Below, piece after piece: positions 7,566-57,862 of a stretch of 64,000 nucleotides of DNA. Within the stretch, counting starts at the first letter, position 1; every line of letters begins with the position of its first letter. Made by a program: the position numbers and the translations under genes. Origin of the DNA: Streptomyces akebiae (lineage in GTDB: Bacteria > Actinomycetota > Actinomycetes > Streptomycetales > Streptomycetaceae). Under the pieces are notes generated by a model, which saw only the letters and a list, made by a program, of their open reading frames with translations, did no database searches and was not told the origin of the DNA. The stretch is from assembly GCF_019599145.1 (NCBI RefSeq), contig NZ_CP080647.1, positions 1,984,001 to 2,048,000 on the forward strand, written 5' to 3'.

Positions 7566-7574
7566 TGTCAGACT
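7566..7574. promoter_or_regulatory. GntR-type operator in front of the ABC uptake operon
   Basis: TGTCAGACT, one of nine intergenic sites of the form TGTCANACT (core GT-N3-AC). On the minus strand a candidate promoter lies just upstream: TTGACG (7601-7606), an 18-nt spacer and TTGAAT (7577-7582). The site then falls at or just past the -10, a position suited to repression. The start codon is about 50 nt downstream. Confidence 0.5.
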
Positions 7575-7606
7575 GCATTCAAAGCTGCCTAACAACTGTC
7601 CGTCAA

Positions 7607-8113
7607 GAGGCCTGACAGTGACATTCGGGTCCGTTGCCACCTCGTGATGGGCGCATCTTCCTCGACCCTCACCGCCGACCGCCGCATCGCTTCCGGCTAC
7701 CACCGGCCTGCACACCGCCACGGGCCGTCCGAACAGCGGCTGACGACCACGGGGGGAACTGTGGCCAGCGGAGTGGCCGGCCAGTCGCGGGCGCCGGTGA
7801 TGCGGCCGCACAAGATCGCGTCAAGGGCGGGGGCAGGCCGGTCGGCGACACCAGTGCGGCGTGGTCGTATACACAGCCCCGACGAGGGGCGATCCAGCCG
7901 AGCACTCAGGAAGGCGCCCCAGGCACAACCGTCACAGACCCTCCGTCCACCATGCCAGCCCGTTACCCGTCGCTGTCGATGTGTCGATCAAGGCCGACGG
8001 AAGACCACAAAGGCCCGCCCTTCTACGCGGCACGCATCAGAGGAGAGCTGCCGTGCGGCGCGGACCAGCACCGTCAACAGGCGTCGCCACCGGAGTGCGA
8101 GTTCCGGGGAAGG
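7607..8113. other. Non-coding stretch, nothing recognised
   Basis: About 500 nt between the uptake-operon promoter and the stop of the CoA-transferase gene. Open frames exist on both strands, but their translations are low-complexity Arg/Pro/Ala sequence without recognisable motifs or ribosome sites. No strong hairpin was noticed. Confidence 0.5.
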
Positions 8114-9415
8114 TCACGCCCGTGCAGGCAGACCGCGCTGTCGCGGCGCGCCCGGGGGAAGCTCCGGGCTGGACGGCCGTCGACTCTGCTGACTGCCGTC
8201 GCCGCTCACACGGACGACACCCGCGTCCTGCAGTCGACCGATCTCCTCGCTCGTGAGGCCGAGGAGATCGGACAGCACGCCCTCGGTGTGTTCACCGAGA
8301 CGTGGCGCCGGCACGGGAGGCGCCCCGGTGCCGGCCCACCGCAGCGGTCGACCGGTGGCCAGTAGAGGGCCGATCCCGGGTTGGTCCATCTCCGCCGCCA
8401 CCGACGTCTCGTCAGCGCGTGCGGCGCGAGCCGCTTCGGCCATGTCCAGGTACGGACTCCACAGGACCTTCGCGCGCTCCAGCAGTTCGCGCACCGTGCC
8501 GAAGTCCCGCTGGGCGAACCATGGCCTCAGTACGGCGGCGATCGTCTCACGCAGCCGATACCTGTCGCCCTCCTGGCTCAGGTCCGCGCCCAGGGCCTGC
8601 TCCAGCGCGGCGAAGACTGCACCCGTCTCGGTGACGTCGCGCAGTGCGCGCCATTGCCCCTCTGTCAGGGCGACCACCATCAGCCGACGGCCGTCCGAGG
8701 TCTCGAAGTCCACGCCGAAGGAGCCGTACATGTGATTTCCCTGGCGGACTCGCGGACCACCCCTCATCTCGGCTTCCGCCAGCCATCCCATGTTGCCGAC
8801 GCCGGCCAACGCCACGTCCGCCAGGGCGAGTTCGAGCTGAGCCCCCTGCCCCTCACGCTCACGATGGAGGAGAGCTGCCAGGATTCCCGAGGCCACGACC
8901 ATTCCGGACAGCAGATCCCAGGCGGGCAGTACGTGATTGACCGGCTGTTCCACGCCCTGGGGGCCGGTCATCTGCGGTACTCCCACTTCCGCGTTGATCG
9001 TGTAGTCGACGGCCGGGGACCCGTCACTCCTGCCCTGGAGGTGCACATGGATGACGTCCTCGCGCCGAGCACGCAGTTCGTCGTACGTCAGCCGGTGTCG
9101 GCCGACCATGTTGTCCAGGAAGATCCCGGCCCCGCGTCCGGGGGCCGTGGCGAGGGCGAGCAGCAGTTCCCGTCCCTGTTCAGTGCGGTGGTCGATCGTC
9201 ACGGACCGCTTGCCCTTGTTGAGGCCGGCCCAGAACAGGCTGTCCCCGGTGGAGGAAAGCGGCCAACGAAGGAAGTCGCTTCCACCGCCCGGAGGGTCTA
9301 CCCGGATGACATCCGCCCCGAGCTGGGCGAGAGCCAGGCCGGCCGAGGGGCCGGCCACGAAGGAAGCGCCTTCGACGATGCGCAGACCGCCGAGCGGCTG
9401 GGGTGATGGCGTCAA
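8114..9415 (-). CDS. Class III CoA-transferase (CaiB/BaiF), candidate mesaconyl-CoA C1-C4 CoA transferase
   Basis: 433 residues from TTG at 9415 (AAGGGA 6 nt upstream); the in-frame extension to 9514 looks non-coding. The family fold is clear: GLRIVEGASFVAGPSAGLAL at the N-terminus, DVIRVDPPGGG, and the nucleophilic Asp in the PAWDLLSGM segment, where family III enzymes carry the catalytic Asp. The length and the VDYTINAEVG/GNHMYGSFGVDFET segments resemble 2-methylfumaryl-CoA isomerase (Mct), an intramolecular CoA transferase of the 3-hydroxypropionate bicycle. The divergent neighbours encode a hydratase and a CitE-like lyase, which would be the next two steps, and this supports the Mct reading. 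The specific substrate remains inferred. Confidence 0.8.
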   Translation of the reverse strand: MTPSPQPLGGLRIVEGASFVAGPSAGLALAQLGADVIRVDPPGGGSDFLRWPLSSTGDSLFWAGLNKGKRSVTIDHRTEQGRELLLALATAPGRGAGIFLDNMVGRHRLTYDELRARREDVIHVHLQGRSDGSPAVDYTINAEVGVPQMTGPQGVEQPVNHVLPAWDLLSGMVVASGILAALLHREREGQGAQLELALADVALAGVGNMGWLAEAEMRGGPRVRQGNHMYGSFGVDFETSDGRRLMVVALTEGQWRALRDVTETGAVFAALEQALGADLSQEGDRYRLRETIAAVLRPWFAQRDFGTVRELLERAKVLWSPYLDMAEAARAARADETSVAAEMDQPGIGPLLATGRPLRWAGTGAPPVPAPRLGEHTEGVLSDLLGLTSEEIGRLQDAGVVRVSGDGSQQSRRPSSPELPPGAPRQRGLPARA

Positions 9416-9572
9416 CGTGATTCCCTTCTGCGGAACGGCGCACTGCGGGTGCTTCCACGGCCACAAGAACCGCTGCACACCCAGGACCAGAGGGAACCGG
9501 CCAAGAGGAATCAACCGCCCTGCTTCCAGGCCGGGCGGGCGTTGTCACCGTGCGTCCATAAGCGCCTCTCTA

Positions 9573-9607
9573 TTGACAATCATGTAATTGTCTTACAACT
9601 ATGTCAA
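9573..9607. promoter_or_regulatory. Divergent promoters with a GntR-type operator in the shared spacer
   Basis: The minus promoter has TTGACA (complement of 9602-9607), a 17-nt spacer and CATGAT (9579-9584). The plus promoter has TTGACA at 9573-9578 with AACTAT about 18 nt on (9597-9602). Between the two -35 boxes lies the perfect palindromic operator TTGTCTTACAA (9588-9598), and the inverted repeat GACAAT/ATTGTC (9575-9592) overlaps it. One bound repressor would block both directions: the CoA-transferase gene to the left and the hydratase/lyase pair to the right. Confidence 0.6.
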
Positions 9608-9682: not shown

Positions 9683-10555
9683 ATGCAGCTCAGTACGAGT
9701 CCTCTACAAGCGCACGTGGAGTCATGGAAGCCGGGCTCGGCGACCTGCGAGGACCCGCTGCTCCCAGGACCCGTCGCGGCGCTGGCGGCGCTGCTCGACA
9801 GACCCGAACCGGTCGCAGGCTCCGGGTCTCCTCTCCCGACGCTGTGGCACTGGCTCTACTTCTTGGACTGGCCCGCCCAGTGCGATCTCGGGCCCGACGG
9901 CCACCCGGCTCACGGCCATTTCCTGCCCCCCGTCCCCGACCGGCAGCGGATGTTCGCCGGAGGGCGCTGCACCGTTTCCGAACCCCTGCGTCTCGGAGAG
10001 CGGGCCGAGCGGGTCAGCAGCGTGCAGAGCGTCGAGGTCAAGCACGGCAGAACCGGCGAACTGCTCTTCGTGACCCAGCGCAACGAGTACCGGCAGGGGG
10101 GCCGGACCTGTCTCGTCGAGGAGCAGGACATTGTCTACCGGTCCGGACGCGGCCCCACCCGGAGCGCTCCCGCGGCGCTCGAAGGGTCGACGGAACCCCA
10201 GGCCGACGACGCGTGGCAGCTCGCACTGCGGCCGGACGCACCCCTACTGTTCCGCTTCAGTGCGCTCACCTCCAATGCCCATCGCATCCACTACGACCTG
10301 CCCTACGCCCGGGACGAGGAGGGCTATCCCGGGCTGGTGGTCCACGGCCCCCTTCTGGTGCTGCTCATGATGGATCTCGTCCACCGCAACGCCCCGGCCC
10401 GCCAGGTGCGGTCCGTGTCTTATCGCCTGCGGAGCCCGGCCTTCGCGGGCGACCGCCTTCTAGCCGCCGGCACCCCGGTGAACGGCCGGACGGAGCTGCG
10501 TATCGCCTCTGGACGAGAGGCCCGGCACGCCACCGCCGAGGTGATGTTCGCATGA
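9683..10555 (+). CDS. FAS1-like/HTD2-type hydratase, candidate mesaconyl-C4-CoA hydratase
   Basis: 290 residues from ATG at 9683 (AAGGA 7 nt upstream). It belongs to the double-hotdog, MaoC/HTD2-like group: an N-terminal hotdog with LWHWLYFLDW and FLPPVPDRQRMFAGG, and a C-terminal hotdog with FRFSALTSNAHRIHYDLPYA followed by GYPGLVVHGPLL, the hydratase site with its Asn/His pair. Length and motifs match mesaconyl-C4-CoA hydratase (Meh), which converts 3-methylfumaryl-CoA to (S)-citramalyl-CoA. It overlaps the lyase gene by 4 nt (ATGA), so the two are co-translated. Other 3-hydroxyacyl substrates are possible. Confidence 0.8.
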   Translation: MQLSTSPLQAHVESWKPGSATCEDPLLPGPVAALAALLDRPEPVAGSGSPLPTLWHWLYFLDWPAQCDLGPDGHPAHGHFLPPVPDRQRMFAGGRCTVSEPLRLGERAERVSSVQSVEVKHGRTGELLFVTQRNEYRQGGRTCLVEEQDIVYRSGRGPTRSAPAALEGSTEPQADDAWQLALRPDAPLLFRFSALTSNAHRIHYDLPYARDEEGYPGLVVHGPLLVLLMMDLVHRNAPARQVRSVSYRLRSPAFAGDRLLAAGTPVNGRTELRIASGREARHATAEVMFA

Positions 10556-11379
10556 CCCGCGGCAGCAGGTACATCTCGTCGGCTCGTAGCTGGCTCTTCG
10601 TCCCCGGGCACCGCCCGGACCGCTTCGCCAAGGCCGCCGCCTCCGGTGCGGACCTGGTCATCATCGACCTCGAAGACGCCGTCGCGGCTGAGGACAAGGA
10701 GCGGGCCCGCGTCAGTGCCGCCGCCTGGCTCGCTCAGGGGAACGACGCGGTCGTCCGGATCAACCCGCCGGGAACCCCTTGGTTCCAGTCCGATCTGGCG
10801 GAGGCGGCCCGCCAGGGCTGCCCGGTCATGGTGCCCAAGGCGGAGGATCCGGCCGTACTCACGGAAGTCGCCGCCCGTGTCGCCGGACGCTGCGAGCTCG
10901 TTCCGCTCATCGAGACAGCGGCCGGTGTGGAACGGGCGTGGGAGGTGTGTGCCACGGTGGGCGTCGCCCGTGCGGCATTCGGCAACGTCGACCTCGCCGG
11001 GCAGCTCGGTGTCGCCTGGGACGACCACACCGCCCTCACGTACGCGCGCTCCAAGCTCGTCTCGGCCTCCGCCGCAGCCGGCATCTGCCCGCCGGTCGAC
11101 GGGGTCACCACCGCGGTGAAGGATGCCGCGGTCCTCCACGAGGACGTCCTGCACGCGCGCCGCCTGGGCTTCACCGGGAAACTCTGCATCCACCCGGCCC
11201 AGGTCGAGGCGGTCAGCCGGGGATTCGCCCCGTCGGAGGCCGAGTTGGAGTGGGCGCGCACCGTCGTCGCCGCAGGGGACTCCGTCACCGCGGTCGACGG
11301 CCGGATGGTCGACAAGCCCGTCCTGGAGAGAGCCAGACGGCTTCTGGGCCAGACCCACGACTCCCACCCCGCGCGCTGA
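10552..11379 (+). CDS. CitE-like lyase, candidate citramalyl-CoA lyase
   Basis: 275 residues from ATG at 10552, overlapping the hydratase stop. A HpcH/HpaI/CitE TIM barrel: ARSWLFVPGHRPDRFAKA at the start, the acidic motif VIIDLEDAV for Mg and CoA-thioester chemistry, VVRINPPGTPW with the key Arg, MVPKAED, LIETAAGVE and FGNVDLAGQLG. The short length fits CitE-like acyl-CoA lyases that act alone rather than malate synthase. After Mct- and Meh-like steps the expected reaction is citramalyl-CoA to acetyl-CoA plus pyruvate. Two strong hairpins follow the stop. Confidence 0.85.
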   Translation: MTRGSRYISSARSWLFVPGHRPDRFAKAAASGADLVIIDLEDAVAAEDKERARVSAAAWLAQGNDAVVRINPPGTPWFQSDLAEAARQGCPVMVPKAEDPAVLTEVAARVAGRCELVPLIETAAGVERAWEVCATVGVARAAFGNVDLAGQLGVAWDDHTALTYARSKLVSASAAAGICPPVDGVTTAVKDAAVLHEDVLHARRLGFTGKLCIHPAQVEAVSRGFAPSEAELEWARTVVAAGDSVTAVDGRMVDKPVLERARRLLGQTHDSHPAR

Positions 11380-11484: not shown

Positions 11485-12019
11485 AACCTTCCCTCCGACA
11501 CGGGCACCGCATAGGTGCCCGCCCAGGACACGGCCGCTCCCCGGCGGTTCCGTACGTCACTGCGGCGATGATGACGACCGTCTCCCGAGTCCCCAGCAGC
11601 AAGATCGGGAACACGAAGTGATGAAGGGTCCGTTCGGCTGGAAGAACACTCGCCAATGGCCCCGCTGCGCACGGCTGGGTAGATCAGCGATGGCTGTTGG
11701 AACGCGTCAGAACCGTGATCGGCAGGCAGTTCGGCTCACGTGTTCTATCGCGGGAGTGTGGCGCCTGCGTGCACCGCCACGGCTGGTCGTGGCAGAGCCC
11801 GGCCAAACGGTGCTCGAACGTGACGAGCAGGCCGTCCAGTTTGGAAGCAAGAAGTGTGGCCGCAGGTGGGAGCACCCAGCGCCGCTCGAGGCCTACGTCG
11901 CCTGACGGCGACGCCGGGATATGTCGGGCGCGGCAGACTCCCCTCGCGAGAATCCGGCGACGGGTCTCGATCACCGCGATGCGCTGCTACCGGCCCCGCT
12001 TCCACCCGCCCTTTGCCAG
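11485..12019. other. No gene recognised; read-through tail of a broken phosphatase gene
   Basis: The minus frame of the SpoIIE-type pseudogene continues without a stop to 11745, but resemblance to the intact paralogue at 32404-34899 ends near 12020; past that point the translation is Arg/Pro-rich and not family-like. Nothing else convincing was seen. Confidence 0.45.
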
Positions 12020-13190
12020 GATTCGGCGTCGCATTCGGCAGCGCCTGCTCGGCCCAGATAGTCTTTCCGGTGGACGACTGGCGGGTGCCCCAGCCCTGAG
12101 TGAGCTGGGCCACGAGAAGAAGCCCGCGGCCACCCTCGTCGAAGACCCGGGCACGGCGCAGGTGAGGGGCTGTATTGCTTGCGTCGGTGACTTCGCAGAT
12201 CAGCGTGCGGTCATGGATCAGACGCAACTGGATAGGCGGTTCGCCGTACCGGATGGCGTTGGTGACCAGTTCGCTGACCACCAACTCGGTGGCGAAGAGA
12301 GCCTCTTCGTGTCCCCATTCAGCAACTTGAGCGGAGACGTTCTTGCGGGCCTGGGCCACGGCTGCGGGATCGGCCGGTATGTCCCAGGTGGCAACCTGTC
12401 CGGCGTCCAGGGCGTTGGGGCGGGCGATCAGCAGGGCAATGTCGTCCTGAGGGCGATCAGGCAACACGCTTTGAGCACCGTGTCGCATGCCTCGTCCAGT
12501 TCCACCTCGGCTGATTCGAAGGGCAGGCCACCCAGGCCCAGCGGTGGACCTGCCGGGAGGTCGAGGAGGCCGACGGTTCCCCTGGGAGTGACCATGAGGG
12601 GCAGTGGATGACCCGCGCGCGCCAGGGTGCAACCGCGGGAGACCGGGTCGTAGACCCGCGTAGAGACAAGTGGCGCCGACGATGTCCGGATCGGCATCAG
12701 GGTCGTACTCCCCGTCGGCATCCTCGTCGGCGAGGCGAGTAACCAGGTCGTCGAGATGAGTCAGCAGTTCGTCAGGTGGCAGATCCACGTCAGCCAGGGT
12801 TCGCACCGCGGTACGCAGGCGGCCCATAGTGGCGGATGCCTGGATGCCGTGGCCGACCACGTCGCCGACCACCAGCGCCACCCGCGCGCCGGAGAGCGGG
12901 ATGACGTCGAACCAGTCGCCGCCCACGCCGCCCACGCCGGCCCGGAGGTCGGCGGGAAGGTAGCGGACGCGACCTCGACCGCCGCCTGCCGTGGCAGCCG
13001 TCGGGGCAGAAGACTGCGCTGCAGAGTGAGAGCCGTGCTCCGCTCACAGGTGTAGCGACGGGCGTTGTCGATGCAAAGCCCGGCGCGGGCCGTGATCTCC
13101 TCGGCGAGCAGCAGGTCGTCGGGGTCGAACGCCTCCCGAAGCTGGCGGCCGCCGAAGACGGCCGCCCCCCAGTGTCTCCCCGCGTGCGCG
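12020..13190 (-). pseudogene. Decayed SpoIIE/RsbU-type phosphatase-kinase gene
   Basis: Homologous along its length to the C-terminal half of the intact gene at 32404-34899, but broken. The PAS and most of the GAF region are missing; what remains starts at VFGGRQLREAFDPDD near 13185. Three frame changes are visible: near 12968 (between EVAS and RYLPADLRAG), near 12656 (an extra G between CLYA and VYDPVSRG) and near 12470, where about 40 codons around the phosphatase end are also lost. The SpoIIE core (GGDWFDVIPLSGARVAL) and the HATPase part (ATELVVSELVTNAIRYG, DEGGRGLLLV) are still readable. It abuts pntB, whose stop is at 13221. Confidence 0.8.
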
Positions 13191-13220: not shown

Positions 13221-14639
13221 TCAGAGTGCGCGAAGGATGTCCTCGACACGCTCCTTGGCGTCGCCGAACAGCATCGCCGAGTTCTCCCGGAAGAACAACG
13301 GGTTCTGTACTCCGGCGTATCCGGAGGCCATGGAACGCTTGAAGACCACGACGTTGTCGGCGTCCCATACCCGCAGCACGGGCATGCCGGCGATGGGGCT
13401 GCCGGGATCGTCCATCGCCGCAGGATTGACGGTGTCGTTGGCGCCGATGACGAGTACGACGGTGGTGCCGTCGAAGTCGTCGTTGATCTCGTCCATCTCC
13501 AGCACGATGTCGTAGGGCACCCTGGCTTCGGCCAGCAGCACGTTCATATGGCCCGGGAGTCGCCCGGCGACCGGATGGATCCCGAAGCGGACGTCCTTGC
13601 CCTTCTCTCTCAGGGTGCGGGTCAGTTCAGCCACACCGTGCTGTGCCTGCGCCACCGCCATGCCGTAACCGGGCGTGATGATCACTGAATCGGCGCCGGT
13701 GAGCATCTCCGCCACACCTTCGGCATTGATCTCGCGGTGCTCGCCGTAGTCACGGTCACCGCCCGGTCCCGCCTCGATCCCGAAACCACCGGCGATCACG
13801 GAGATGAAGGAACGATTCATCGCCTTGCACATGATGTACGACAGGTACGCGCCGGAGGAGCCCACCAGGGCACCGGTGATGATCAGCAGGTCGTTCTCCA
13901 GGAGGAATCCCGAGGCGGCCGCGGCCCAGCCTGAGTAGCTGTTCAGCATCGACACCACGACCGGCATGTCACCGCCGCCGATCGAGGCGACCAGGTGCCA
14001 GCCCAACAGCAGTGCGAGCGCGGTGACCGCCACCAGCAGCCAGAGGCTCGGCTCGACCACGAACCAGGTGGTCAGTATCGCGAACACCAACAACGCGCCG
14101 AGGTTGAGGGCGTTCTTGCCGGGCAGTGTCAGCGGAGCCGACTTGATCCGCGCGGACAGCTTGAGGAAGGCGACCACGGAACCGGTGAACGTCACCGCGC
14201 CGATGAACACGCCTATGAACACCTCGGCATGGTGGATGCCCAGGGTGTCCGTGGCACGCAGCGCCTGTGCCGCGTCACCGTCGAGGTGCGCCTCGACATG
14301 GAGATAGCCATTCCAGCCGACCATCACCGCGGCCAGTCCCACGAAGCTGTGCAGCAGCGCGATGAGCTCCGGCATCCCGGTCATCTCCACCGCCTTGGCC
14401 CGTCGCAGCCCGATGAGGGCTCCGACGGCGGTGGCGGCGAGCAGCAGGCCGAGGCCGGAGCCCTCCAGGTCCTGGTCGATGGCCAGGGCGACGGTCGCGA
14501 ACAGCGCGACCGCCATCCCCACGATGCCGAAGGTGTTGCCCGCCTTGGCGGTTTCGTGTCTCGACAGGCCCGCCAGGGCCAGGATGAACAGCAGTGCCGA
14601 GACGATGTAGGCCGCCTGTGCGGCGGTGTCGACAGCCAT
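13221..14639 (-). CDS. pntB: NAD(P) transhydrogenase subunit beta
   Basis: 472 residues, close to the usual 460-480. The N-terminal half is membrane domain II of the proton pump, with about nine hydrophobic helices. The C-terminal half is the NADP-binding domain III, with [47 protein letters not shown] and the terminal [17 protein letters not shown] motif. With PntA it couples proton entry to hydride transfer from NADH to NADP. The start lies 6 nt after the pntA stop. Placement next to etfBA and acyl-CoA genes suggests that it helps balance NADH and NADPH made during catabolism. Confidence 0.95.
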
Positions 14640-14645
14640 GCGGGG

Positions 14646-16175
14646 TCAGCTCCTGGAGAACATGGCGAGCATGCGCCGGGTGACGGCGAACCCACCGAAG
14701 ACATTGATGGCGGCGAGCAGGATCGCGACGGTCGAGACGGCTGTGATCGCGGTGTCGCCGTGGCCGATCTGCAGCAATGCTCCGACCACGATGACGCCGG
14801 AGATCGCGTTGGTCACCGACATCAGCGGAGTGTGCAGGGCATGGTGCACATGCCCGATCACGTAGTAACCGACCACGATCGCGAGGGCGAAGACGGTCAG
14901 GTGGCCCTGAAGCGCGCGCGGTGACAGCGCGGCGATCAGAAACAGCAGCGCGCCGACGGCCGCGACCGCCGTGAACCGCTTGGCGGGCGACACGACCCGC
15001 TGATGCACGCTCTCGGCTCGGACAGTCGCCGCCGCGGGCGCGGCAGCCGGTGCCGCCGACACCTGCACCGGCGGCGGTGGCCAGGTCAGCTCGCCCTTGC
15101 GCACGACAGTCATCGATCGCTGCACGACGTCGTCGAAGTCCAGCACCAGGGTGCCGTCCTTGTCCGGCGTCAGCAGTTTCATCAGGTTGACCAGGTTGGT
15201 GCCGTACAGCTGGGACGCCTGGGCGGGAAGCCGGCCCGCGAGGTCGGTGTAGCCGATGATCGTCACCCCGTTGTCAGTGACCACCTTCCGCCCACCGACG
15301 GAGCCCTCCACATTGCCGCCGTTGGACGCGGCCATGTCCACGATCACGCTGCCGGGCTTCATCGCGGCCACCATCTCGGCGGTGATCAGCCGGGGCGCCG
15401 GCCGTCCCGGAATCAGGGCGGTGGTGATGACGATGTCGACGTCCTGGCACTGCGCGGCGTAGAGCTCCTGCTCGCGCGCCTTGTATCCGTCGCCCATCTC
15501 CTTGGCGTATCCGGTCGCGCTGACCTGCGCCTCGACGGACTCGATCGACAGGTACTCACCGCCCAGCGACCTGACCTGGTCGGCCACCTCCGGCCTCGGG
15601 TCGGTGGCACGCACCACCGCGCCCAGACTGCCGGCCGTGCCGATCGCCGCGAGTCCGGCGACACCGGCACCGGCCACCAGCACCTTGGCCGGCGGGACCT
15701 TGCCCGCAGCGGTGACCTGCCCCGTGAAGAACCGGCCGAACTCATGGGCCGCCTCGACCACGGCCCGGTATCCGGCAATATTGGCCATCGATGACAGGAC
15801 GTCCAGCGACTGGGCCCGCGAGATCCGTGGCACAGCGTCCATGCCCAGAACGGTGATGGGGCGTCCAGCCAAGGCGTCCGCCCGTCCGGGCTCCCCCGCC
15901 AGTCCCAACTGGCTGATGAGAGTGGCGCCTTCGCGCAGCCCGTCCAACTGCTCCTCCGACGGCGGGTTCACTCCCAACACGATGTCGGCCGCCAAGGCGT
16001 CGCCCAGGGTGGCGCCGGCCTCGATGTAGGCCTCGTCGGGAAAGCTGGACGCCGCACCAGCGCCCGGCTCCACCACCACTTCGTAGCCCAGCTGCAGCAG
16101 CTGCGCGGCGGTCGTTGGCGTGGTCGCGACCCTCGTCTCGCCGGGTTTGGACTCTTTCACCACACCGATAAGCAC
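14646..16175 (-). CDS. pntA: NAD(P) transhydrogenase subunit alpha (fused alpha1-alpha2)
   Basis: 509 residues from GTG at 16175, chosen because GGAG lies 6 nt upstream; an in-frame start at 16199 has weaker support. Order: the alanine-dehydrogenase-like NAD domain with [17 protein letters not shown] at the N-terminus, the [20 protein letters not shown] loop, the Rossmann glycine motif [18 protein letters not shown] near residue 165, then from about residue 400 the short membrane part with four helices. Some actinobacteria split this protein in two; here it is one chain, like E. coli PntA. A shared promoter region separates it from etfB. Confidence 0.95.
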
Positions 16176-16292
16176 GGCGGTCTCCTTCACGTCCGGCACG
16201 CCAGGTATCGAGGCATCCGCGGGCGTTGGCGTGCAGCCGCCCAGTCATGGCCGATGCGTCGGTCCGTGGGAGTGCTTCGAGAGCAGTCAGTA

Positions 16293-16340
16293 TTGATCTA
16301 ACGAAGATTTAAATGTCATACTCTTCTCGTATTGTCAACA
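16293..16340. promoter_or_regulatory. Divergent pntA/etfB promoter region with a GntR-type operator
   Basis: The operator TGTCATACT lies at 16314-16322. On the plus strand TTGATC (16293-16298) and CATACT (16317-16322) form a candidate etfB promoter whose -10 is inside the operator. On the minus strand a perfect TTGACA (complement of 16334-16339) faces pntA with AT-rich sequence about 17 nt on. A second small palindrome, TTGTCAACAA (16332-16341), overlaps that -35. Confidence 0.5.
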
Positions 16341-16380: not shown

Positions 16381-17166
16381 TTGAGCTTGAGGATCGTTGT
16401 CACTGTGAAGTACGTGCCCGACGCCACTGGCGACCGGCACTTCGCCGATGACCTGACCGTCGACCGTGACGACGTGGACGGTCTGCTCTCCGAGCTGGAC
16501 GAGTACGCGGTCGAGCAGGCGCTGCAGATCGCCGACGAGGCGGAGGACGCCGAGATCAGCGTGCTGACCGTGGGTCCCGAGGACGCCAAGGACGCGCTGC
16601 GCAAGGCGCTGTCGATGGGTGCCGACAAGGCGATCCACGTCGAGGACGACGATCTGCACGGCACCGACGCCATCGGCACCTCGCTGGTGCTGGCGAAGGC
16701 GATCGAGAAGGCCGGTTACGACCTGGTGATCTCCGGCATGGCCTCCACCGACGGCACCGGCGGTATCGTCCCGGCGCTGGTCGCCGAGCGTCTGGGTGTC
16801 CCGCAGGTCACGCTGCTCTCCGAGGTCTCCGTCGAGGACGGCGTGGTCAAGGGCCGCCGTGACGGCGACGCCGCGTCCGAGCAGCTGGAGGCCTCCCTCC
16901 CGGCCGTCGTGTCGGTCACCGACCAGTCGGGCGAGGCCCGTTACCCGTCCTTCAAGGGCATCATGGCGGCGAAGAAGAAGCCGGTTCAGTCCTGGGACCT
17001 GTCCGACCTCGACATCGAGGCCGAGGACGTCGGTCTGGAAGGCGCCTGGACGGCCGTGGACTCCGCGACCGAGCGCCCGACGCGCACCGCCGGCACGATC
17101 GTCAAGGACGAGGGCGAGGGCGGCAAGCAGCTCGCCGAGTACCTCGCGGGCCAGAAGTTCATCTAA
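16381..17166 (+). CDS. etfB: Electron transfer flavoprotein subunit beta
   Basis: 261 residues from TTG at 16381 (AAGGGG upstream). Typical EtfB: MSLRIVVTVKYVPD at the start, the AMP-binding region DGTGGIVPALVAERLGVPQVT, and the recognition loop region near residue 195 that docks to acyl-CoA dehydrogenases. With EtfA it carries electrons from acyl-CoA dehydrogenases to the quinone pool. First of three genes (etfB, etfA, etfD). Codon use here is more strictly GC-ending than in the flanking catabolic genes, so this trio is probably well expressed. Confidence 0.96.
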   Translation: MSLRIVVTVKYVPDATGDRHFADDLTVDRDDVDGLLSELDEYAVEQALQIADEAEDAEISVLTVGPEDAKDALRKALSMGADKAIHVEDDDLHGTDAIGTSLVLAKAIEKAGYDLVISGMASTDGTGGIVPALVAERLGVPQVTLLSEVSVEDGVVKGRRDGDAASEQLEASLPAVVSVTDQSGEARYPSFKGIMAAKKKPVQSWDLSDLDIEAEDVGLEGAWTAVDSATERPTRTAGTIVKDEGEGGKQLAEYLAGQKFI

Positions 17167-17256
17167 GGCCCTGCGGCCCGCCGCGGCCCCGGCCCGGCCG
17201 AGGCCCACTCCCTCATCGCCCCTCGAAGCCTTCGCAATCCGCAGGAGAGCAATCCC

Positions 17257-18219: not shown

Positions 18220-18244
18220 ACCCACCTCAGGCGAAAGGCCTTCC

Positions 18245-24813: not shown

Positions 24814-24817
24814 GGCT

Positions 24818-25597: not shown

Positions 25598-25670
25598 GTT
25601 GTCCTCACCATCGGGAGTTGTCCGTGCGTGCCGCCGCCGGCCGCGCCGCACTCGTCATATGTGTCCGGGT

Positions 25671-26420: not shown

Positions 26421-26488
26421 GTGTCCTCCTGTCGATGCCTTCGGCCTTCCGAAGGGGGCGTTGCGGGAAGTGGGGACAACGGTTCTGG

Positions 26489-27684: not shown

Positions 27685-27714
27685 AGGGTTCGTCTTCCGA
27701 TCTCTGGGTTCCGG

Positions 27715-29888: not shown

Positions 29889-29912
29889 TAGTACGGCTCC
29901 TTTGAGACGTGG

Positions 29913-30662: not shown

Positions 30663-30691
30663 AAGATGTCTGACATTCAACTCGCTGTCAA
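30663..30691 (-). promoter_or_regulatory. Promoter of the nine-gene operon with an embedded GntR-type operator
   Basis: On the minus strand a perfect TTGACA (complement of 30686-30691), a 17-nt spacer and CATCTT (complement of 30663-30668). The palindromic operator TGTCTGACA (30667-30675) overlaps the -10 and spacer. Six nt lie between the -10 and the ATG at 30656, which predicts a leaderless transcript. Confidence 0.6.
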
Positions 30692-31048: not shown

Positions 31049-31057
31049 AGTCAAACT
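31049..31057. promoter_or_regulatory. GntR-type operator in front of the alcohol dehydrogenase gene
   Basis: AGTCAAACT, part of the 13-mer GTCAAACTATTGC (31050-31062) that recurs exactly at 57837-57849 in front of the epoxide hydrolase gene. No canonical -35/-10 pair is obvious around it. The start codon is about 180 nt downstream. Confidence 0.45.
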
Positions 31058-35170: not shown

Positions 35171-35209
35171 AGTGTCTGACAGTTGACCGACTGAAGCCTC
35201 AAAGCTAGA
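35171..35209 (+). promoter_or_regulatory. GntR-type operator plus promoter for aldehyde dehydrogenase
   Basis: The palindromic operator TGTCTGACA (35171-35179) lies directly before TTGACC (35181-35186), a 17-nt spacer and TAGATT (35204-35209), a good sigma-70-type promoter. The start codon is about 160 nt downstream. Placed upstream of the -35, the site could serve activation or repression. Confidence 0.6.
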
Positions 35210-36855: not shown

Positions 36856-36965
36856 CCCCTGGGGGAAACGGCCCGGAACCCGGCCCGTTCCTCCCCGCAA
36901 GCACGACCGACGGTCATGAGTTGGGTCGACTCCGGGTCGGCCGTGAGGTGAGTGAGGTACCCGCA

Positions 36966-37954: not shown

Positions 37955-38695
37955 CTACGCCTTGGGCTGGGCGGTCGAATACCGCAGGACGTAGTCGAGG
38001 TGCGACTGCATCGCCTCGGCGGCCGCGTCCTCGTCCTCGGTCTCGATCGCCGCGAGGATCACCATGTGCTGCTTCACCGTCCGCTTCCCGACTTCCGCGG
38101 TCACGTCCAGGTACTGCGCCGGATGCGTGGCATCGTGCACCGCGGCGATGAACGCCGCCAGCAGACGGTTGCCGGACGCCTGCCCGATCGTCGTGTGGAA
38201 TGCCAGGTCGTAGCCTGGAATCTCCGGATCATCGATCGTCGTCGTCCGCTGCCGCTCCACGATCGACCGCAGCTCGCTCACATGCTCCTCGCTCCGATGC
38301 CGAGCGGCCAGGCGGGCGGCCGGGACCTCCAACACCCGCCGTACATCGGTCAGTTCGAGCATGTCCAAGGCACCCAGGCGCAAAATGGTGTCCACCGACT
38401 CACTCAGCATCCGGCTGAGCGAATCCGGAGTGACCGTGTTGACGAAACTCCCGCCGGCCATACCCGGAATCTTCCGGATGAGACCGCCGCTCACCAGCGC
38501 ACCCAGCGCCTCCCGCACGGTGGGACGGCTCACCCCGAACTGCTTGGCCAGCTCCGTCTCCGGTGGCAGCTTCTCCCCCTGGGCGAAACGGCCCTCCAGG
38601 ATCGCCTCCCTGATCTGCTGCTCCACCTGATCACGCGGCCGCGTCACCTGTCGCGCCCGGAACTTCTCCGCCGCCCCAGACCCCGTTTCAGCCAT
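37955..38695 (-). CDS. FCD-domain GntR-family transcriptional regulator (FadR subfamily)
   Basis: 246 residues from ATG at 38695; GGGGAGG lies 6 nt upstream. Residues about 15-85 are the winged helix (KLPPETELAKQFGVSRPTVR, then a GLI turn). The C-terminal FCD domain shows the metal/ligand pattern DLAFH, QHMVIL and SHLDYV, an Asp and three His. Such proteins bind short palindromes of the form GT-N3-AC and are released by acids or acyl-CoA esters. It is the last gene of the minus catabolic unit and has two copies of the motif at its own promoter, so autoregulation is likely. It is the best candidate to bind the nine shared sites in this window. Confidence 0.93.
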   Translation of the reverse strand: MAETGSGAAEKFRARQVTRPRDQVEQQIREAILEGRFAQGEKLPPETELAKQFGVSRPTVREALGALVSGGLIRKIPGMAGGSFVNTVTPDSLSRMLSESVDTILRLGALDMLELTDVRRVLEVPAARLAARHRSEEHVSELRSIVERQRTTTIDDPEIPGYDLAFHTTIGQASGNRLLAAFIAAVHDATHPAQYLDVTAEVGKRTVKQHMVILAAIETEDEDAAAEAMQSHLDYVLRYSTAQPKA

Positions 38696-38770: not shown

Positions 38771-38803
38771 AGTATATGACCAGGGTCGGTAAATTGTCAT
38801 ACT
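38771..38803 (-). promoter_or_regulatory. gntR promoter with overlapping operators
   Basis: On the minus strand the -10 TATACT (complement of 38771-38776) and a -35 near ATGACA (about 38795-38800) flank a spacer of about 18 nt. The operator TGTCATACT (38795-38803) covers the -35, and a related GGTCATATACT (38771-38781, minus strand) covers the -10. This fits negative autoregulation. Confidence 0.55.
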
Positions 38804-40085: not shown

Positions 40086-40202
40086 CTGATGGTCCGTTCC
40101 TCTCAGTCCAGTGGCCACGGTGTCGTCCCGACAACCGCGACCCGTGGGTCAGCAGGGGCGATGGGTGCGGGGCGCGGGTCGTCCCGGACTCTGCTCGGTC
40201 GG

Positions 40203-41666: not shown

Positions 41667-41724
41667 GGACCTCTCCTCGTGGACAAAACCTGTGTCAGTC
41701 GGCGGCGCCGGCCGACGCGCTCGG

Positions 41725-44863: not shown

Positions 44864-44915
44864 GAGGCCTCCTTCCTCGAGTGGTGCTTCAGGGACGTGG
44901 AATGCGCGAGGGCCG

Positions 44916-46743: not shown

Positions 46744-46782
46744 AGTTTGACATTACGATACTGTGTCTAGGAGGCTTGTCAA
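46744..46782 (-). promoter_or_regulatory. Promoter of the ring-cleavage unit with a GntR-type operator
   Basis: Minus strand: perfect TTGACA (complement of 46777-46782), 16-nt spacer, TATCGT (complement of 46755-46760). The operator TGTCAAACT (complement of 46744-46752) begins about 3 nt past the -10 and covers the expected start point, suited to repression. The plus-strand hydroxyacyl-CoA dehydrogenase gene diverges from the same region. Confidence 0.6.
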
Positions 46783-46838
46783 GGATCTTGGAGTTCGTCC
46801 ACACAGGACGATTCACCGATGACGTCGAGGAGACGCTG

Positions 46839-48765: not shown

Positions 48766-50184
48766 GTGGTCTTGGATCCGCAGCGTTGGTTGGAACTGCG
48801 GCGCTTTCGGAGTCTGTTGGAATCCGGGGCGATCAGCCTGTCGGAGGTGGCCCGGGAGACCGGGCTGGACCGGAAGACGGTGCGTAAGTATCTGTCGGCG
48901 CCGGGTCCGGCGACCCCGCCGCGGCGGTCGCCGAGCGGGCGGTCGAAGGCGAGGGTGATCGATGAGTTCGCGCCGTTGGTGGACTCGATGCTGCGGGCGG
49001 AGATCTTGATGAAGGCCGCGGTGATCCACGGGCGGCTGGCCGCGGAGTACGGGTTCACCGGCAACTATCAGCGCGTCAAGCTCTACGTTCAGGAAGCCCG
49101 GCCTCGCATCGCCGAGGAACTCGGCATCACGCCGAAGGAACTCGCCGGCATGCACCGCCGCTTCGAAGTGATCCCCGGAGCCCAGGCCCAGGTGGACTGG
49201 GGCGACGAGGGCAAGATCCTCGCCCACATGGGAATCCCGAAGGTCTACTCCTTCCACATGACGCTGTCGTATTCGCGCGACCCGTTCTGCTGCTTCACCA
49301 CCAGCCAGGACCTGCAGAGCTTCTTCGACTGCCACCGCCGGGCCTTCGCCCACTTCGGCGGTGTCCCGATGACGATCGTCTACGACCGCACGAAGACCGT
49401 CGTCCGCCGGCACGTCGCTCCGGGCGAGGCGGTCCCGCTGCATCCGGAAGCGGTCGGGTTCGCCGGCCATTACGACTTCGATATCGACGTCCTGGCCGCT
49501 TACCGGCCCACCGGCAAGGGACGCGTCGAACGACAGGTCCTCATCGTCCGTGACCACGTCCTGTCCGGCCGGTCCTTCTCCTCCGTCGAGGAGATGGACG
49601 CCGCCTTCGCCGCCTGGGTGCCGCGGCGCAGGGCTCAGGCCCACAGGACTCACCAGCAGATCATCGGCGAGCGGGCCGCCCGCGACCACGTGGCCCTCAA
49701 ACCGCTGCCGGAGACTCCGTATCTGGTGGCCGAACGGCATCTGCGGCCGGTCGGCAAGGACTGTCTGGTCGCCTTCGGCGGCAATCTCTACTCGGTGCCC
49801 GCACGAAGAGTCCGACCGCGTCAGCTGGTGGAGATCCGGGCCACGAAGTCGCAGGTCATGCTGCATTCCACCATCGCGAACGCCAACGGCGAGACGCTGC
49901 TGGCCACCCATCTGCGGGCGGTCGGCCGCGGGGCCCGTGTCGTCGAGGAGGCCCACTGGGACGGTCTGCCCACCGGCAAGGGGCGCCGGACCACCACCGG
50001 CGATGTCCTGCCACGGCCTCTCCGTGAGCCTGCTCGGGGCGAGGAGACAGGGCCTCTGCAGGCCCTGTTGAACCGCACCGCGGCCACCCGCATCGAGGTC
50101 GGCCGCCGTCCGCTGTCGGTCTATGACGAGCTGACCGGAACCCGCCCCTTCACCACCCGTCCGAGCACGAGGGAAACGTCTTGA
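48766..50184 (+). CDS. istA: IS21-family transposase IstA
   Basis: 472 residues from GTG at 48766 (GGAAGG upstream); a TTG at 48703 is in frame but has no ribosome site. N-terminal HTH (LSEVARETGLDRKTVRKYL), then the rve-type DDE integrase core with Asp in AQVDWGDEGK, Asp in IVYDRTKTVV, and the Glu expected near KGRVERQV. C-terminal part GGNLYSVPARRVRPRQLVEI is the Mu-transposase C-terminal-like domain. It cuts and joins the element's ends with help from IstB. It overlaps istB by 4 nt. Confidence 0.95.
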   Translation: MVLDPQRWLELRRFRSLLESGAISLSEVARETGLDRKTVRKYLSAPGPATPPRRSPSGRSKARVIDEFAPLVDSMLRAEILMKAAVIHGRLAAEYGFTGNYQRVKLYVQEARPRIAEELGITPKELAGMHRRFEVIPGAQAQVDWGDEGKILAHMGIPKVYSFHMTLSYSRDPFCCFTTSQDLQSFFDCHRRAFAHFGGVPMTIVYDRTKTVVRRHVAPGEAVPLHPEAVGFAGHYDFDIDVLAAYRPTGKGRVERQVLIVRDHVLSGRSFSSVEEMDAAFAAWVPRRRAQAHRTHQQIIGERAARDHVALKPLPETPYLVAERHLRPVGKDCLVAFGGNLYSVPARRVRPRQLVEIRATKSQVMLHSTIANANGETLLATHLRAVGRGARVVEEAHWDGLPTGKGRRTTTGDVLPRPLREPARGEETGPLQALLNRTAATRIEVGRRPLSVYDELTGTRPFTTRPSTRETS

Positions 50185-50951
50185 GCGAGCTGGTCTCCAC
50201 CCGCATCCGCAGCACGGCCGGAAAGCTCGGCCTGCCCCACCTGGTTGAAACGATCAACGAGTACACCCGGCGGGCCGACGAGGGCAAGATGGGCTACCTC
50301 GACTTCCTCGACCTGGTGCTGTCCGAGGAACTCGCCGTCCGCGACGACCGCCGCTTCCGCCAGGGCCTGCGGCTCTCCCGGCTGCCCCACCACAAGACGC
50401 TCGACGAGTACGACTTCTCGTTCCAGCCCGACCTCGACCCGCGGAAGGTCAAGGACCTGGCCACCCTCTCATTCGTCGACGGCAAGGCGAACGCCGCTCT
50501 GCTCGGGCCGCCCGGGGTCGGCAAGACACACATCGCCGTCGCTCTCGCGGTCGCGGCCTGCCGGGCCGGCTACTCGATCTACTTCACCAGCCTCGACGAC
50601 ATGGTCCGCAACCTCAAAACCGCCGAGGCTGCCGGGCGTCTGACGAACAAGCTCGGCACCTACCTGCGGCCCAGCGTCCTGGTGGTGGACGAGGTCGGCT
50701 ACCAGCCCCTCGAACGAGCCGAGGCGAACCTGGTCTTCCAGGTCATCTCAAAGCGCTACGAGAAGGGCTCCATCATCCTGACCTCGAACAAGACCTTCAG
50801 CGAATGGGGCCAGGTCTTCGGCGACGAAGTCCTCGCCACCGCCATCCTCGACCGTCTCCTGCACCACTGCGAAGTGATCTCCATCAACGGCCCCAGCTAC
50901 CGGCTCAAGAACCGCCTCAAGGCCATCGAGCGAGAGAACGACGTGGCGTGA
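50181..50951 (+). CDS. istB: IS21-family helper ATPase IstB
   Basis: 256 residues from TTG at 50181, in the TTGA overlap with the istA stop. DnaC/IstB AAA+ ATPase: Walker A LLGPPGVGKTH near residue 112, Walker B VLVVDEVGYQPL, sensor-1 IILTSNKTF and C-terminal DRLLHHCEVI. It selects targets and stimulates the transposase. Confidence 0.96.
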   Translation: MSELVSTRIRSTAGKLGLPHLVETINEYTRRADEGKMGYLDFLDLVLSEELAVRDDRRFRQGLRLSRLPHHKTLDEYDFSFQPDLDPRKVKDLATLSFVDGKANAALLGPPGVGKTHIAVALAVAACRAGYSIYFTSLDDMVRNLKTAEAAGRLTNKLGTYLRPSVLVVDEVGYQPLERAEANLVFQVISKRYEKGSIILTSNKTFSEWGQVFGDEVLATAILDRLLHHCEVISINGPSYRLKNRLKAIERENDVA

Positions 50952-52748: not shown

Positions 52749-52777
52749 TTGACTTACATTATAGAGATAGTTAACGT
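52749..52777 (+). promoter_or_regulatory. Promoter of the third aldehyde dehydrogenase gene
   Basis: TTGACT (52749-52754), 17-nt spacer, TAACGT (52772-52777) in an AT-rich patch. It lacks a clear TGTCANACT operator; only the half-site TTACA is present. Its gene starts at 52831. Confidence 0.55.
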
Positions 52778-52830: not shown

Positions 52831-54303
52831 ATGTCCAGCGGGCTACTCGCAAGCTACGAGACGGTCTTCATCGACGGCGAATGGCTGCGGGCGGCCACAC
52901 GTGATCGAATTCAGGTGGTCTCGCCATGGAGCGAGGAGGTCATCGCTTCGGTGCCGGCCGGTTCCCGCGAGGACATCGATCGCGCCGTCGGCGCCGCGCG
53001 CCGCGCCTATGAATCCGGTCCCTGGCCCTCGATGTCGCTGGACGATCGCATCGGCATTCTGGCCAGGCTTCGTGACCTCCTGGTCGCGCACACGGCCGAG
53101 TTCGCCCAGCTGATCACAGACGAGATGGGCTGCCCGATCACTCAGTCACGGGCGATCCAGGTGAGCAATCCCGTGGGGATCCTGGAGGCCTACCTGGACG
53201 CGGCCGCCGAGTACCCCTTCCGCACGATCCGCCGCTCCAAGGTCGGCCAGGCGCTCGTCACCAAGAACCCCATCGGCGTGGTCGCGGCCGTGGTCCCTTG
53301 GAACGTGCCACTCTCCCTCACCATGCAGAAGTTGACGCCGGCGCTCCTCACGGGGTGCACCGTCGTACTCAAGCCCGCACCGGAGACTCCGCTCGACGCG
53401 TACCTCGTGGCGCGGCTGCTCGGCGAGGCCGGGTTGCCTCCAGGCGTCGTCAACGTCGTTCCGGCGGACCGAGAGGTCAGCGAGTACCTGATCTCGCACC
53501 CGGACGTCTCCAAGGTGACCTTCACCGGCTCGAGCGCCGCAGGACGCCGGATCGCCGAGATCTGCGGGCGGGACCTGCGCCGGGTCACCCTGGAGCTCGG
53601 TGGGAAGTCGGCGGCGGTCGTACTCGACGACGCCGATCTCGATGCGGCGGTGTCGTCACTGCGTCTCGGCGCGTTCCGCAACAGCGGCCAGGTCTGCAGC
53701 CTGAAGACCAGGCTCGTGGTGCCCGAGTCCCGTCTGCCGGAGTTCCTCGAGCGTCTTGAGGCACTCGTCGACTCGATGCCGGTAGGTGACCCGCACGACG
53801 AGGCGACTCACATCGGGCCCCTGGTCAGTGAGCGGCAACGATCGAGGGTCGAGGCCTACATCGAAGCCGGGAAGTCCGAGGGGGCACGACTCGTCCGCGG
53901 TGGCGGGCGCCCCGCCGGCCTGGACCGAGGTTGGTTCGTGGAACCCACTGTCTTCACCGGTGTGCGCCCCGACGCCAGGATCGCCCAAAAAGAGATCTTC
54001 GGACCTGTCGTCGCCGTCATCCCGTACAAGGACGAGGACGAGGCCATCGCGATCGCCAACGACTCGCAGTACGGGCTGAACGGATCGGTCTTCTCCTCCG
54101 ACGTCGAACGCGGACTGCGAGTTGCGGCTCGCATCCATACCGGGACGGTTGAGCTCAACGGGAGCCCCGCTGGTTTTCGAGCACCCATGGGCGGCGTCAA
54201 GCACAGCGGCCTGGGACGCGAGTTCGGTCCGGAAGGACTTGACGCCTTCGTCGAGACGAAATCCATCGGTGTCACGAAGGAAGTAGCCGACTCACTTCAG
54301 TAA
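52831..54303 (+). CDS. Aldehyde dehydrogenase (paralogue of 40203-41666)
   Basis: 490 residues; ATG at 52831 with GGAG about 10 nt upstream. VVAAVVPWNVPLSL, KPAPETPLDAYL, FTGSSAAGRRIAEI, Glu in LELGGKSAAVVL and Cys in NSGQVCSLKTRLV. It is closely similar throughout to the ALDH inside the beta-oxidation unit and shares LITDEMGCPITQSRAI with it. Unlike that copy it has its own promoter and is isolated between mobile-element debris, so it may be a transposed or duplicated copy with separate control. Confidence 0.92.
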   Translation: MSSGLLASYETVFIDGEWLRAATRDRIQVVSPWSEEVIASVPAGSREDIDRAVGAARRAYESGPWPSMSLDDRIGILARLRDLLVAHTAEFAQLITDEMGCPITQSRAIQVSNPVGILEAYLDAAAEYPFRTIRRSKVGQALVTKNPIGVVAAVVPWNVPLSLTMQKLTPALLTGCTVVLKPAPETPLDAYLVARLLGEAGLPPGVVNVVPADREVSEYLISHPDVSKVTFTGSSAAGRRIAEICGRDLRRVTLELGGKSAAVVLDDADLDAAVSSLRLGAFRNSGQVCSLKTRLVVPESRLPEFLERLEALVDSMPVGDPHDEATHIGPLVSERQRSRVEAYIEAGKSEGARLVRGGGRPAGLDRGWFVEPTVFTGVRPDARIAQKEIFGPVVAVIPYKDEDEAIAIANDSQYGLNGSVFSSDVERGLRVAARIHTGTVELNGSPAGFRAPMGGVKHSGLGREFGPEGLDAFVETKSIGVTKEVADSLQ

Positions 54304-57255: not shown

Positions 57256-57778
57256 CAGTTCACTTCCTTACATAAACTGCTGGATAGACAGGATCAAGAC
57301 CTGGACCGGGCCGGGCGGACCTGGTCCAACAGCACTCCTCCACTACTCAGGCGCAGGTAGCTCTGAACAGGGACAGCTCCGCGCCGAGAGCGAGCATCGA
57401 GTAGGCGTCCAGGTATGGCCCGTGCCAGCCAGGGCGGGCACTTGCAGTCCTGGCAGGTGACGGCCGTACCATCGCGCTCGAAGGAAGCGGCCGTGATCCT
57501 CTCGCGAGAGACCATGGGTGCCTCCGGGACGCGTGACACCGGGCGCCGAGGCATGTTGGGGACCTTTCGCGTTGCGGGAGCTGACGCTCTATGAGAGAAG
57601 GCGCATAAGACGACGTCAGCGGAGAGAGGAAGGGAGTCGGGCCACGGACCTCGGCCGCCCGCGTCTCGTTGGCATGTTTCCTCTGCTGTGTTCACAGCAG
57701 GGCGGACTGCCTTGACTAAATCCGCCGCCGCAACAGCTATGAGCGGTGAACTGTTCGACCCCTGAGCGTGCGACTCTT
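57256..57778. other. Upstream region of the rhamnosidase gene, no gene recognised
   Basis: Minus-strand open frames here show no family motif. The region presumably holds the rhamnosidase promoter and a leader of up to 500 nt. Confidence 0.45.
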
Positions 57779-57790
57779 TGAAACGTTTCA
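57779..57790. promoter_or_regulatory. LacI-family operator palindrome
   Basis: TGAAACGTTTCA is a perfect 12-bp palindrome with central CG, the classic LacI-family operator form. It lies between the rhamnosidase gene (minus) and the epoxide hydrolase gene (plus). No lacI gene is visible in the window. Confidence 0.65.
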
Positions 57791-57834
57791 CTCAAGATCA
57801 GAACAGCAGTAGCGGGCGATCAACCAGATGTTAT

Positions 57835-57862
57835 TTGTCAAACTATTGCGCAGCTGTACTTA
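57835..57862 (+). promoter_or_regulatory. Promoter with GntR-type operator before the epoxide hydrolase gene
   Basis: TTGTCA (57835-57840), 16-nt spacer and TACTTA (57857-57862). The operator TGTCAAACT (57836-57844) overlaps the -35, within the 13-mer GTCAAACTATTGC that recurs at 31050-31062. Confidence 0.5.

Follow-up and report, generated by a model that had tools for sequence, protein, structure and literature searches.

Several published GntR repressors resemble the system reported here. In Corynebacterium glutamicum, AnsR is a FadR-subfamily GntR repressor of an asparagine-use operon, with the operator ACCTGTCTGACAGCT (PMC9145765). AlkR is an FCD-type GntR repressor with the operator ATTGTCAGACAAT; it covers -10 regions and is released by long-chain acyl-CoA (PMC12042122). 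In Streptomyces coelicolor, the FCD-type GntR repressor HypR acts at several promoters, is autoregulated and has a potential FCD metal site (PMC6608401). In the operators of LldR and PdhR, GT and AC are located 3 nt apart (PMC4494728). Here we analyzed 64,000 nt of Streptomyces akebiae DNA (the window; contig NZ_CP080647.1, positions 1,984,001 to 2,048,000), which contains a catabolic gene cluster and the gene of an FCD-type GntR protein, gntR. A first-pass annotation proposed that nine promoter regions in the window share one short operator with the core GT-N3-AC, and suggested that a single GntR protein reads all of them. The distribution and conservation of the sites, their fixed spacing to TTGAC boxes and their co-occurrence with gntR in other genomes support this suggestion. 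The sites are very likely operators of this GntR protein, with the whole cluster forming one regulon.

Like AnsR, the window GntR would be an actinobacterial repressor of catabolic operons with an identical operator core. AnsR differs in controlling one operon, from an operator downstream of the start site that acts as a roadblock (PMC9145765). The gene context of AnsR was not found, as no asparaginase, aspartase or asparagine permease is present among the window proteins scanned. AlkR shares the FCD type and the operator core, but it belongs to the VanR group, targets alkB2 for alkane oxidation and has one main site (PMC12042122). HypR shows that an FCD repressor can act at several sites in Streptomyces, but its motif is CTNTGC(A/C)ATGTCAC and it functions in hydroxyproline use (PMC6608401). 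LldR, NanR and PdhR (2di3, 6on4, 9jpj) belong to the same fold family. NanR reads direct repeats, TGGTATAW (PMC4494728), whereas the window candidate is a TGTCWGACA palindrome. The first-pass annotation considered the GT-N3-AC shape to be known for FadR-type GntR proteins, which agrees with the published consensus (PMC2230225, PMC4494728). The FadR-subfamily palindrome, with GT and AC 3 nt apart (TNGTNNNACNA or TKGT-ACMA), is matched by the candidate TGTCWGACA. By the features tested, the system appears to be an FCD/FadR-subfamily GntR regulon, a new regulon of a known kind. In searches of open-licence PubMed Central text for the operator or the cluster, the papers listed dealt with AnsR, AlkR and HypR, were reviews or were unrelated, and none of those listed concerned the present regulon.

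The pattern TGTCWNACW was taken from the first-pass annotation, and its oriented matches were counted on each strand. Coding (53 kb) and intergenic (10.6 kb) DNA in the window were defined by our own codon-based gene calls, not by curated annotation. The motif, or a variant close to it, is present at each of the nine proposed positions, with some corrections. Two positions were given as 9588 and 35171, one and two bases early; TGTCTTACA begins at 9589 and TGTCTGACA at 35173. The site at 31049, AGTCAAACT, is one base away from the pattern. Exact matches are found at nine distinct sites, which are the other eight proposed sites and 60442. All nine are intergenic, as first claimed, and none is coding; the motif is thus not equally frequent inside genes. 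The 11 oriented matches in the window compare with 3.2 expected from dinucleotide shuffles, and 0 of 100 shuffles reached 11. Letter-permuted patterns (2000) gave a mean of 0.38 and a maximum of 7 intergenic matches, compared with 9 real sites. The whole genome (10,549,378 bases, 10.55 Mb) contains 73+62 = 135 oriented matches and the reversed control 75+70 = 145, indicating no genome-wide excess. Yet 11 of the 135 are in the window, which is 0.6% of the genome. The motif is therefore locally concentrated, with an enrichment of about 14-fold. The bare core GT-N3-AC is uninformative (31 intergenic matches in 10.6 kb and 138 coding matches in 53 kb of the window). It was dropped as a diagnostic.

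The same contrast is found around gntR in other genera. One pattern-based scan of 84,980 species genomes yielded 12 gntR loci, 11 of which encode close relatives (68-77%). These are from Kribbella (three, on one contig), Marmoricola (two), Pedococcus (two), Rhodococcoides fascians, Tsukamurella, Modestobacter and a Rhodococcus metagenome-assembled genome. The twelfth, L042, has 29% identity and was dropped. In the 11 loci, TGTCWNACW occurs at 23 intergenic sites in 18 kb and has two coding matches in 199 kb. Two pairs of loci overlap; the 23 sites are nonetheless unique. Word counts that made no use of the motif point to the same element. Between intergenic and coding DNA of the 11 loci, the leading 7-mers are TCAGACA, GTCAGAC and TCTGACA, and the leading 8-mers are GTCAGACA and GTCTGACA. 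Among 9-mers, TGTCAGACA ranks third after GACAATGTA and ACAATGTAC, two words that overlap with longer sites, for example TGTCAGACAATGTAC. Expectation-maximisation started from frequent words recovered nothing but codon periodicity from this intergenic DNA, and word counts were used instead.

A symmetric matrix of 19 columns was built from 23 non-Streptomyces sites (consensus aa.TGTCaGACA.tt). Its ten best matches in the window (14.8 to 22.8) are all intergenic, and they are the nine proposed sites and 52750. A matrix from orthologous promoters, the check proposed in the first-pass annotation, thus places all nine in the top ten. The next match is 60442 (10.3), followed by the best coding match (9.8). 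In 300 shuffles of the intergenic DNA, the mean number of matches at 14.5 or above was 0.06 and the maximum 2, and 300 column-permuted matrices produced at most 3, compared with 10 real matches. Another group of four motif matches in the genome, near 6.65 Mb (three intergenic and one coding, matrix scores 11.0-14.5), was taken as chance; no gene there resembles a window protein.

Our comparison also revealed sites before the same operons in different genomes. In a set of 392 Streptomyces genomes that includes the own genome (G000), four match the window GntR at E up to 1e-60: the own genome, G278 (98%), G384 (84%) and G261 (53%). G278 is the nearest relative, and 80 kb of it was fetched for comparison. 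A gene-by-gene comparison found sites before the same operons in five of the six other genera. The operon running from a short-chain dehydrogenase/reductase (SDR) gene through a thiolase gene to a CoA ligase gene is preceded by a site in the window, G278, G384, L031, L033 and L034, and the place and register of the 30667 site are identical in all six promoters. The enoyl-CoA hydratase (ECH) operon is preceded by a site in the window, G278, G384, L035 and L037-L041, and the 3-hydroxyacyl-CoA dehydrogenase (3HCDH) gene diverges from it in the window, G278, G384 and L037-L040. The 7566 site is kept in G278, and sites are found before the homologous permease of an ATP-binding cassette (ABC) transporter in L033 and L034 (44-47% identity). 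The 9589 site, between CoA-transferase and MaoC genes, is kept in G278 and G384, and Kribbella locus L032 has a site before a related CoA-transferase gene. Counterparts of 16314 are present in G278 and before pntA in Kribbella L041. The 35173 site, before an aldehyde dehydrogenase (ALDH) gene, is kept in G278. A site is located upstream of gntR itself in the window, G278 (a one-base variant, TGTCATACC, score 18.5), G384 (TGTACGACA), L031, L041 and G261 (CGTCAGACA).

The sites adopt three registers relative to putative promoters. Promoter positions were predicted from sequence, and the -10 boxes are weak. In register A, TTGAC-N11-operator, the operator is located inside the -35/-10 spacer. This register is found in six of six SDR-operon promoters and also at 9589 and, toward pnt, at 16314. 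A gap of exactly 11 is present at 3 of 10 sites in the window, 3 of 6 in G278, 3 of 6 in G384 and 5 of 24 in the other loci, compared with 0.05-0.45% of random intergenic positions. In the SDR-operon promoters, the ATG is 6-7 nt past the putative -10 (in L033 the ATG taken is in-frame, 12 nt upstream of the called start). This suggests that the SDR operon transcripts are probably leaderless. Register B, TTGACA-N16-TATCGT-AA-operator, positions the operator of 46744 just after the -10 and is kept in G278 and G384. Register C, operator-N1-TTGNNN-N17-TANNTT, is found at 35173; it is kept in G278 and also occurs in G384, before genes for 3-hydroxyisobutyrate dehydrogenase (HIBADH) and electron transfer flavoprotein (etf). 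Read by eye and with a weaker -35 (TTGC..), it also precedes MmgE/PrpD genes in G278, in L041 and in L054, the 20 kb upstream of the window. The 31049 and 57836 sites have an operator-N1-TTGC context without a clear -10. The first-pass claim that most sites overlap or abut a -35/-10 is supported at 9589, 16314, 30667, 35173 and 46744 and is less clear at 7566, 31049, 38795 and 57836. In register C the operator centre is near -42. Many activators use a position near -42, which raises the question of dual control, repression or activation.

Composites of operator and promoter box track gntR across genomes. TTGAC-N11-WGTNWNACA matches the own genome three times, each time within the window, and its reversed control has no match. 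Among the 392 Streptomyces genomes, 51 have any match. Three matches are found only in G000, G278 and G384, and four other genomes have two. The genomes with three matches are exactly those with a gntR orthologue of at least 84% identity; G261, the 53% relative, has no match. The six genomes of other genera contain seven TTGAC-N11 composite matches, in four genomes. Five are at fetched operators, one is on the same contig about 14 kb beyond the locus and one is elsewhere. The pattern GTANNNTGTCWKACA has 12 matches across all six of these genomes (control 1); 10 of them fall within gntR loci, and the other 2 are on the same contig, about 12-13 kb away from the locus. The pattern GTCARACWMTTGC has four matches in the own genome, three in the cluster region and one at 1.506 Mb. 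Across eight other genomes it has four further matches (control 1). Each of these is on a cluster contig, with one beyond the fetched loci, and five of the eight genomes have none. The co-occurrence with gntR makes the window GntR the best candidate regulator.

The gntR product contains both domains expected of its type, the N-terminal GntR winged helix PF00392 (72.3 bits, cut-off 27) and the C-terminal FCD domain PF07729 (94.0 bits, cut-off 24.3). The metal-site residues D-x3-H...H...H, typical of many FCD domains, are present. D163, H167, H210 and H232 are invariant in 18 aligned sequences and align with the matching residues of LldR (2di3), which we take to have a metal role. The recognition helix is nearly unchanged across the same 18 sequences. 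The search found 625 homologues at E up to 1e-20, and the 120 listed of these have 69-98% identity and are from Streptomyces and several other actinobacterial genera. The nearest NCBIfam models are far below their cut-offs, with 137.1 of 260 bits for NanR (NF003011), 97 of 311 for LldR and 83 of 330 for PdhR. No other typical DNA-binding regulator is present among the window proteins scanned, which included all but one 32-aa open reading frame (ORF). The scan of the other loci was partial (10 proteins). The remaining candidates in the window are ORF 11697-12611, which has a weak HTH_33 match, and a SpoIIE-type phosphatase. The ORF is located in a gap without other gene calls and is perhaps a transposase remnant. 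The phosphatase (32404-34587; PAS-GAF-SpoIIE with an ATPase domain) is encoded mid-cluster and has a counterpart in G278. It is a possible second control layer.

Table 1. The proposed regulator gene and candidate operators in the window (positions in the window; scores from the 19-column matrix).
Feature	Position	Strand	Context	Matrix score
Operator TGTCAGACT	7566..7574		48 nt before ABC permease gene 6420-7517	14.8
Operator TGTCTTACA	9589..9597		between CoA-transferase-like gene 8114-9478 and MaoC-like/CitE-lyase genes 9716-11379	22.8
Operator TGTCATACT	16314..16322		between pntAB (13221-16199, minus) and etfBA/FeS protein genes (16405-20539, plus)	18.6
Operator TGTCTGACA	30667..30675		10 nt before SDR-thiolase-...-CoA ligase-ECH run 22398-30656	22.3
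Operator variant AGTCAAACT	31049..31057		181 nt before Zn-dependent alcohol dehydrogenase (Zn-ADH) gene 31239-32276	16.5
Operator TGTCTGACA	35173..35181		abuts -35 (TTGACC-N17-TAGATT) before ALDH/HIBADH-like genes 35371-37835	17.9
gntR, FCD-type GntR regulator, 246 aa (Pfam PF00392 and PF07729)	37955..38695	minus	proposed regulator of the whole set	
Operator TGTCATACT	38795..38803		99 nt before gntR (candidate autoregulation site)	21.9
Operator TGTCAAACT	46744..46752		before run 38892-46648, common to 3HCDH gene 46788-48320	16.1
Candidate operator TGACTTACA	52750..52758		before ALDH gene 52831-54303; absent from the first-pass list	17.5 (seventh in window)
Operator TGTCAAACT	57836..57844		221 nt before alpha/beta hydrolase gene 58066-58896	20.1
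Doubtful site TGTCTCACT	60442..60450		upstream of molybdenum-hydroxylase genes 61088-64000	10.3 (near best coding, 9.8)

Several observations weigh against a single regulator for all these sites. The training sites were chosen with the first-pass pattern, so the matrix core is partly circular; the matrix flanks and the two off-pattern matches (31049 and 52750) are free of this. The composite patterns are also partly circular, having been drawn after the promoters were inspected, and it is therefore their genome-wide distribution, not the match itself, that serves as evidence. One intergenic shuffle reached a score of 22.2, and unbiased word counts on the window alone do not single out the motif. 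The TTGAC-N11 composite is absent from two of the six genomes of other genera. A single TGTCWNACW site is present in each of the loci fetched from Tsukamurella and Modestobacter, and the one in Tsukamurella (L036 6019) does not precede any operon that the window also has. Of the first-pass targets, gntR belongs to the 38795 site, and the gene after 57836 encodes an alpha/beta hydrolase, for which the name 'epoxide hydrolase' is unsupported. No counterpart of this hydrolase gene was found in the 80 kb fetched from G278. A reading compatible with one GntR regulon, and one that deserves real though minority weight, is that only species-conserved sites are functional, with 31049, 57836 and 60442 being chance or decayed. 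Seven of the nine first-pass sites have a G278 counterpart, and 31049 and 57836 have none. The 60442 score is near background, and the site stands 637 nt from the next called gene start. Against this, 31049 and 57836 score 16.5 and 20.1, and both have the operator-N1-TTGC context, three of whose four own-genome copies are in the cluster region.

The sites could instead belong to another FCD/GntR protein, for example an AnsR-like one, with the local GntR controlling itself or little. The core is shared with the published AnsR and AlkR operators, with TGTCTGACA/TGTCAGACA identical, and some sites could therefore be read by a different FCD regulator. In the own genome, at least 35 GntR-family proteins match the window GntR, itself included, and TGTCTGACA is found elsewhere in this genome, including a pair at an ALDH-like gene near 0.675 Mb. 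We consider this explanation unlikely. The composites track the window gntR in the 392 Streptomyces genomes and mostly adjoin its orthologues in six other genera, and no second typical regulator appeared in the window scans, with the other loci partly scanned. It is also conceivable that the motif is a promoter part, TTGACA-type -35 boxes and their reverse complements, as AGTTTGACA includes TTGACA and intergenic DNA is enriched in TGACA (25 matches in 10.6 kb, compared with 41 in 53 kb of coding DNA). However, separate TTGAC boxes are located at fixed distances from several of the sites, 11 nt at 3 of the 10 window sites and 25 nt at 46744 and two counterparts. The element conserved in other genera is palindromic, and the composite is rare without the orthologue, as 48 of 389 such genomes have one or two. 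These features make a promoter part very improbable.

Control by the window GntR suggests a model in which we infer its binding, its dimeric state, the direction of control, the effector and the substrate. A GntR dimer would read the 9-bp palindrome TGTC(W)GACA with its A/T-rich flank, and several window copies would have drifted to TGTCATACT or TGTCAAACT. Bound in the spacer at 9589, 16314 and 30667, or just past the -10 at 46744, it would exclude RNA polymerase. At 35173, where it abuts the -35, it may act as a repressor or as an activator. GntR would be released by a carboxylate or CoA-ester from the pathway, bound at the FCD metal site. Import, CoA activation, ring and beta-oxidation steps, electron transfer and NADPH supply would then rise together, and gntR would limit itself through 38795.

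The enzymes encoded in the cluster hint at its substrate. ECH 45872-46648 is closest to MenB-type naphthoate synthases, with the BadI ring-cleaving hydrolase third, and its solved relatives are mostly MenB. BadH is second for SDR 25671-26420. SDR 29913-30656 is above the cut-off of a glucose-1-dehydrogenase subfamily, with hydroxycyclohexanecarboxylate dehydrogenase only tenth. Two acyl-CoA dehydrogenases match acryloyl-CoA reductase first and cyclohexanecarbonyl-CoA dehydrogenase second. Transferase 8114-9478 is closest to 2-methylfumaryl-CoA isomerase, and lyase 10552-11379 is closest to RipC/CitE. NCBIfam cut-offs are passed by pntA, pntB, the thiolase and 3HCDH; most other family matches are below cut-off. 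These family matches, together with a sugar-type ABC importer, CoA ligase, thiolase, electron transfer flavoprotein and transhydrogenase, lead to our tentative leading guess that the cluster degrades an alicyclic carboxylic acid to CoA-esters.

Matrix matches continue upstream of the window. In L054, TGTCAGACC (15.8) is located between an SDR-HIBADH-ALDH run and an MmgE/PrpD gene, AGTCAGACA (14.7) precedes a Zn-ADH gene, and GGTCAGACT (13.6) precedes a second MmgE/PrpD gene. A site is likewise present at the orthologues of this second gene in G278 (96%) and in Kribbella L041 (79%). The two MmgE/PrpD genes are at L054:14364-17562, just upstream of the window. The 20 kb downstream of the window (L055) has no matrix match above 8.1. 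A wider proposal is a conserved actinobacterial regulon for an unknown, possibly alicyclic natural product. Run by one GntR protein, it would extend over many promoters, include a satellite locus in the 16 kb upstream of the window (MmgE/PrpD, SDR-HIBADH-ALDH and ADH genes) and use the three registers mostly for repression, with activation where the operator abuts the -35, to produce an ordered, not a uniform, induction. We consider this proposal doubtful, the more so because the alicyclic-enzyme families are not top matches and few promoters show the -35-abutting register clearly.

Additional observations were made at the cluster and its relatives. In Kribbella (L031:4507-9307), molybdenum hydroxylase and XdhC genes are beside gntR, and the Fer2 subunit is 86% identical to that encoded at 61088-61636 in the window. 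This supports a pathway link of the molybdenum hydroxylase, though the 60442 site is weak. An IS21-type istA/istB pair (48817-50951) is located within the cluster after the 3HCDH gene, and the gene calls for the 80 kb fetched from G278 include no match to it. Near 0.675 Mb in the own genome, adjacent TGTCTGACA and AGTCTGACA are at the called start of an ALDH-like gene (L058:9993-10010; scores 14.7 and 12.5). They may be true operators, of this GntR or of another regulator. Within about 85 kb on one contig, Kribbella has three gntR copies, and Marmoricola and Pedococcus have two each, every copy beside different pathway modules (L031-L034, L039-L041). These are possibly subfunctionalised regulators with one common operator. 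Two Streptomyces plasmids (L060:13031-33019 and L061:7038-29712) encode a GntR protein of 49% identity, accompanied by a smaller CoA-ester cluster and by sites that resemble TGTCCAACA, and L060 also has a SpoIIE-family protein near this cousin. The shifted operator, tried as WRTCCRACA, gave five intergenic and two coding matches in L060 and two intergenic matches in L061. This is suggestive only, perhaps of a sister regulon.

The proposed regulon unites about 50 kb of enzyme genes with generic annotations in a single unit that can be tested, for which the regulator is named, the operators are listed and the promoter registers are predicted. Related gntR clusters are found in Streptomyces, Kribbella, Marmoricola, Pedococcus, Rhodococcus, Tsukamurella and Modestobacter. 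The system also raises a question of specificity, as at least two further FCD regulators in the literature use the 9-bp core and the genome encodes dozens of GntR-family proteins. The operator provides a handle to delimit the genes of the pathway and to find its substrate and effector.

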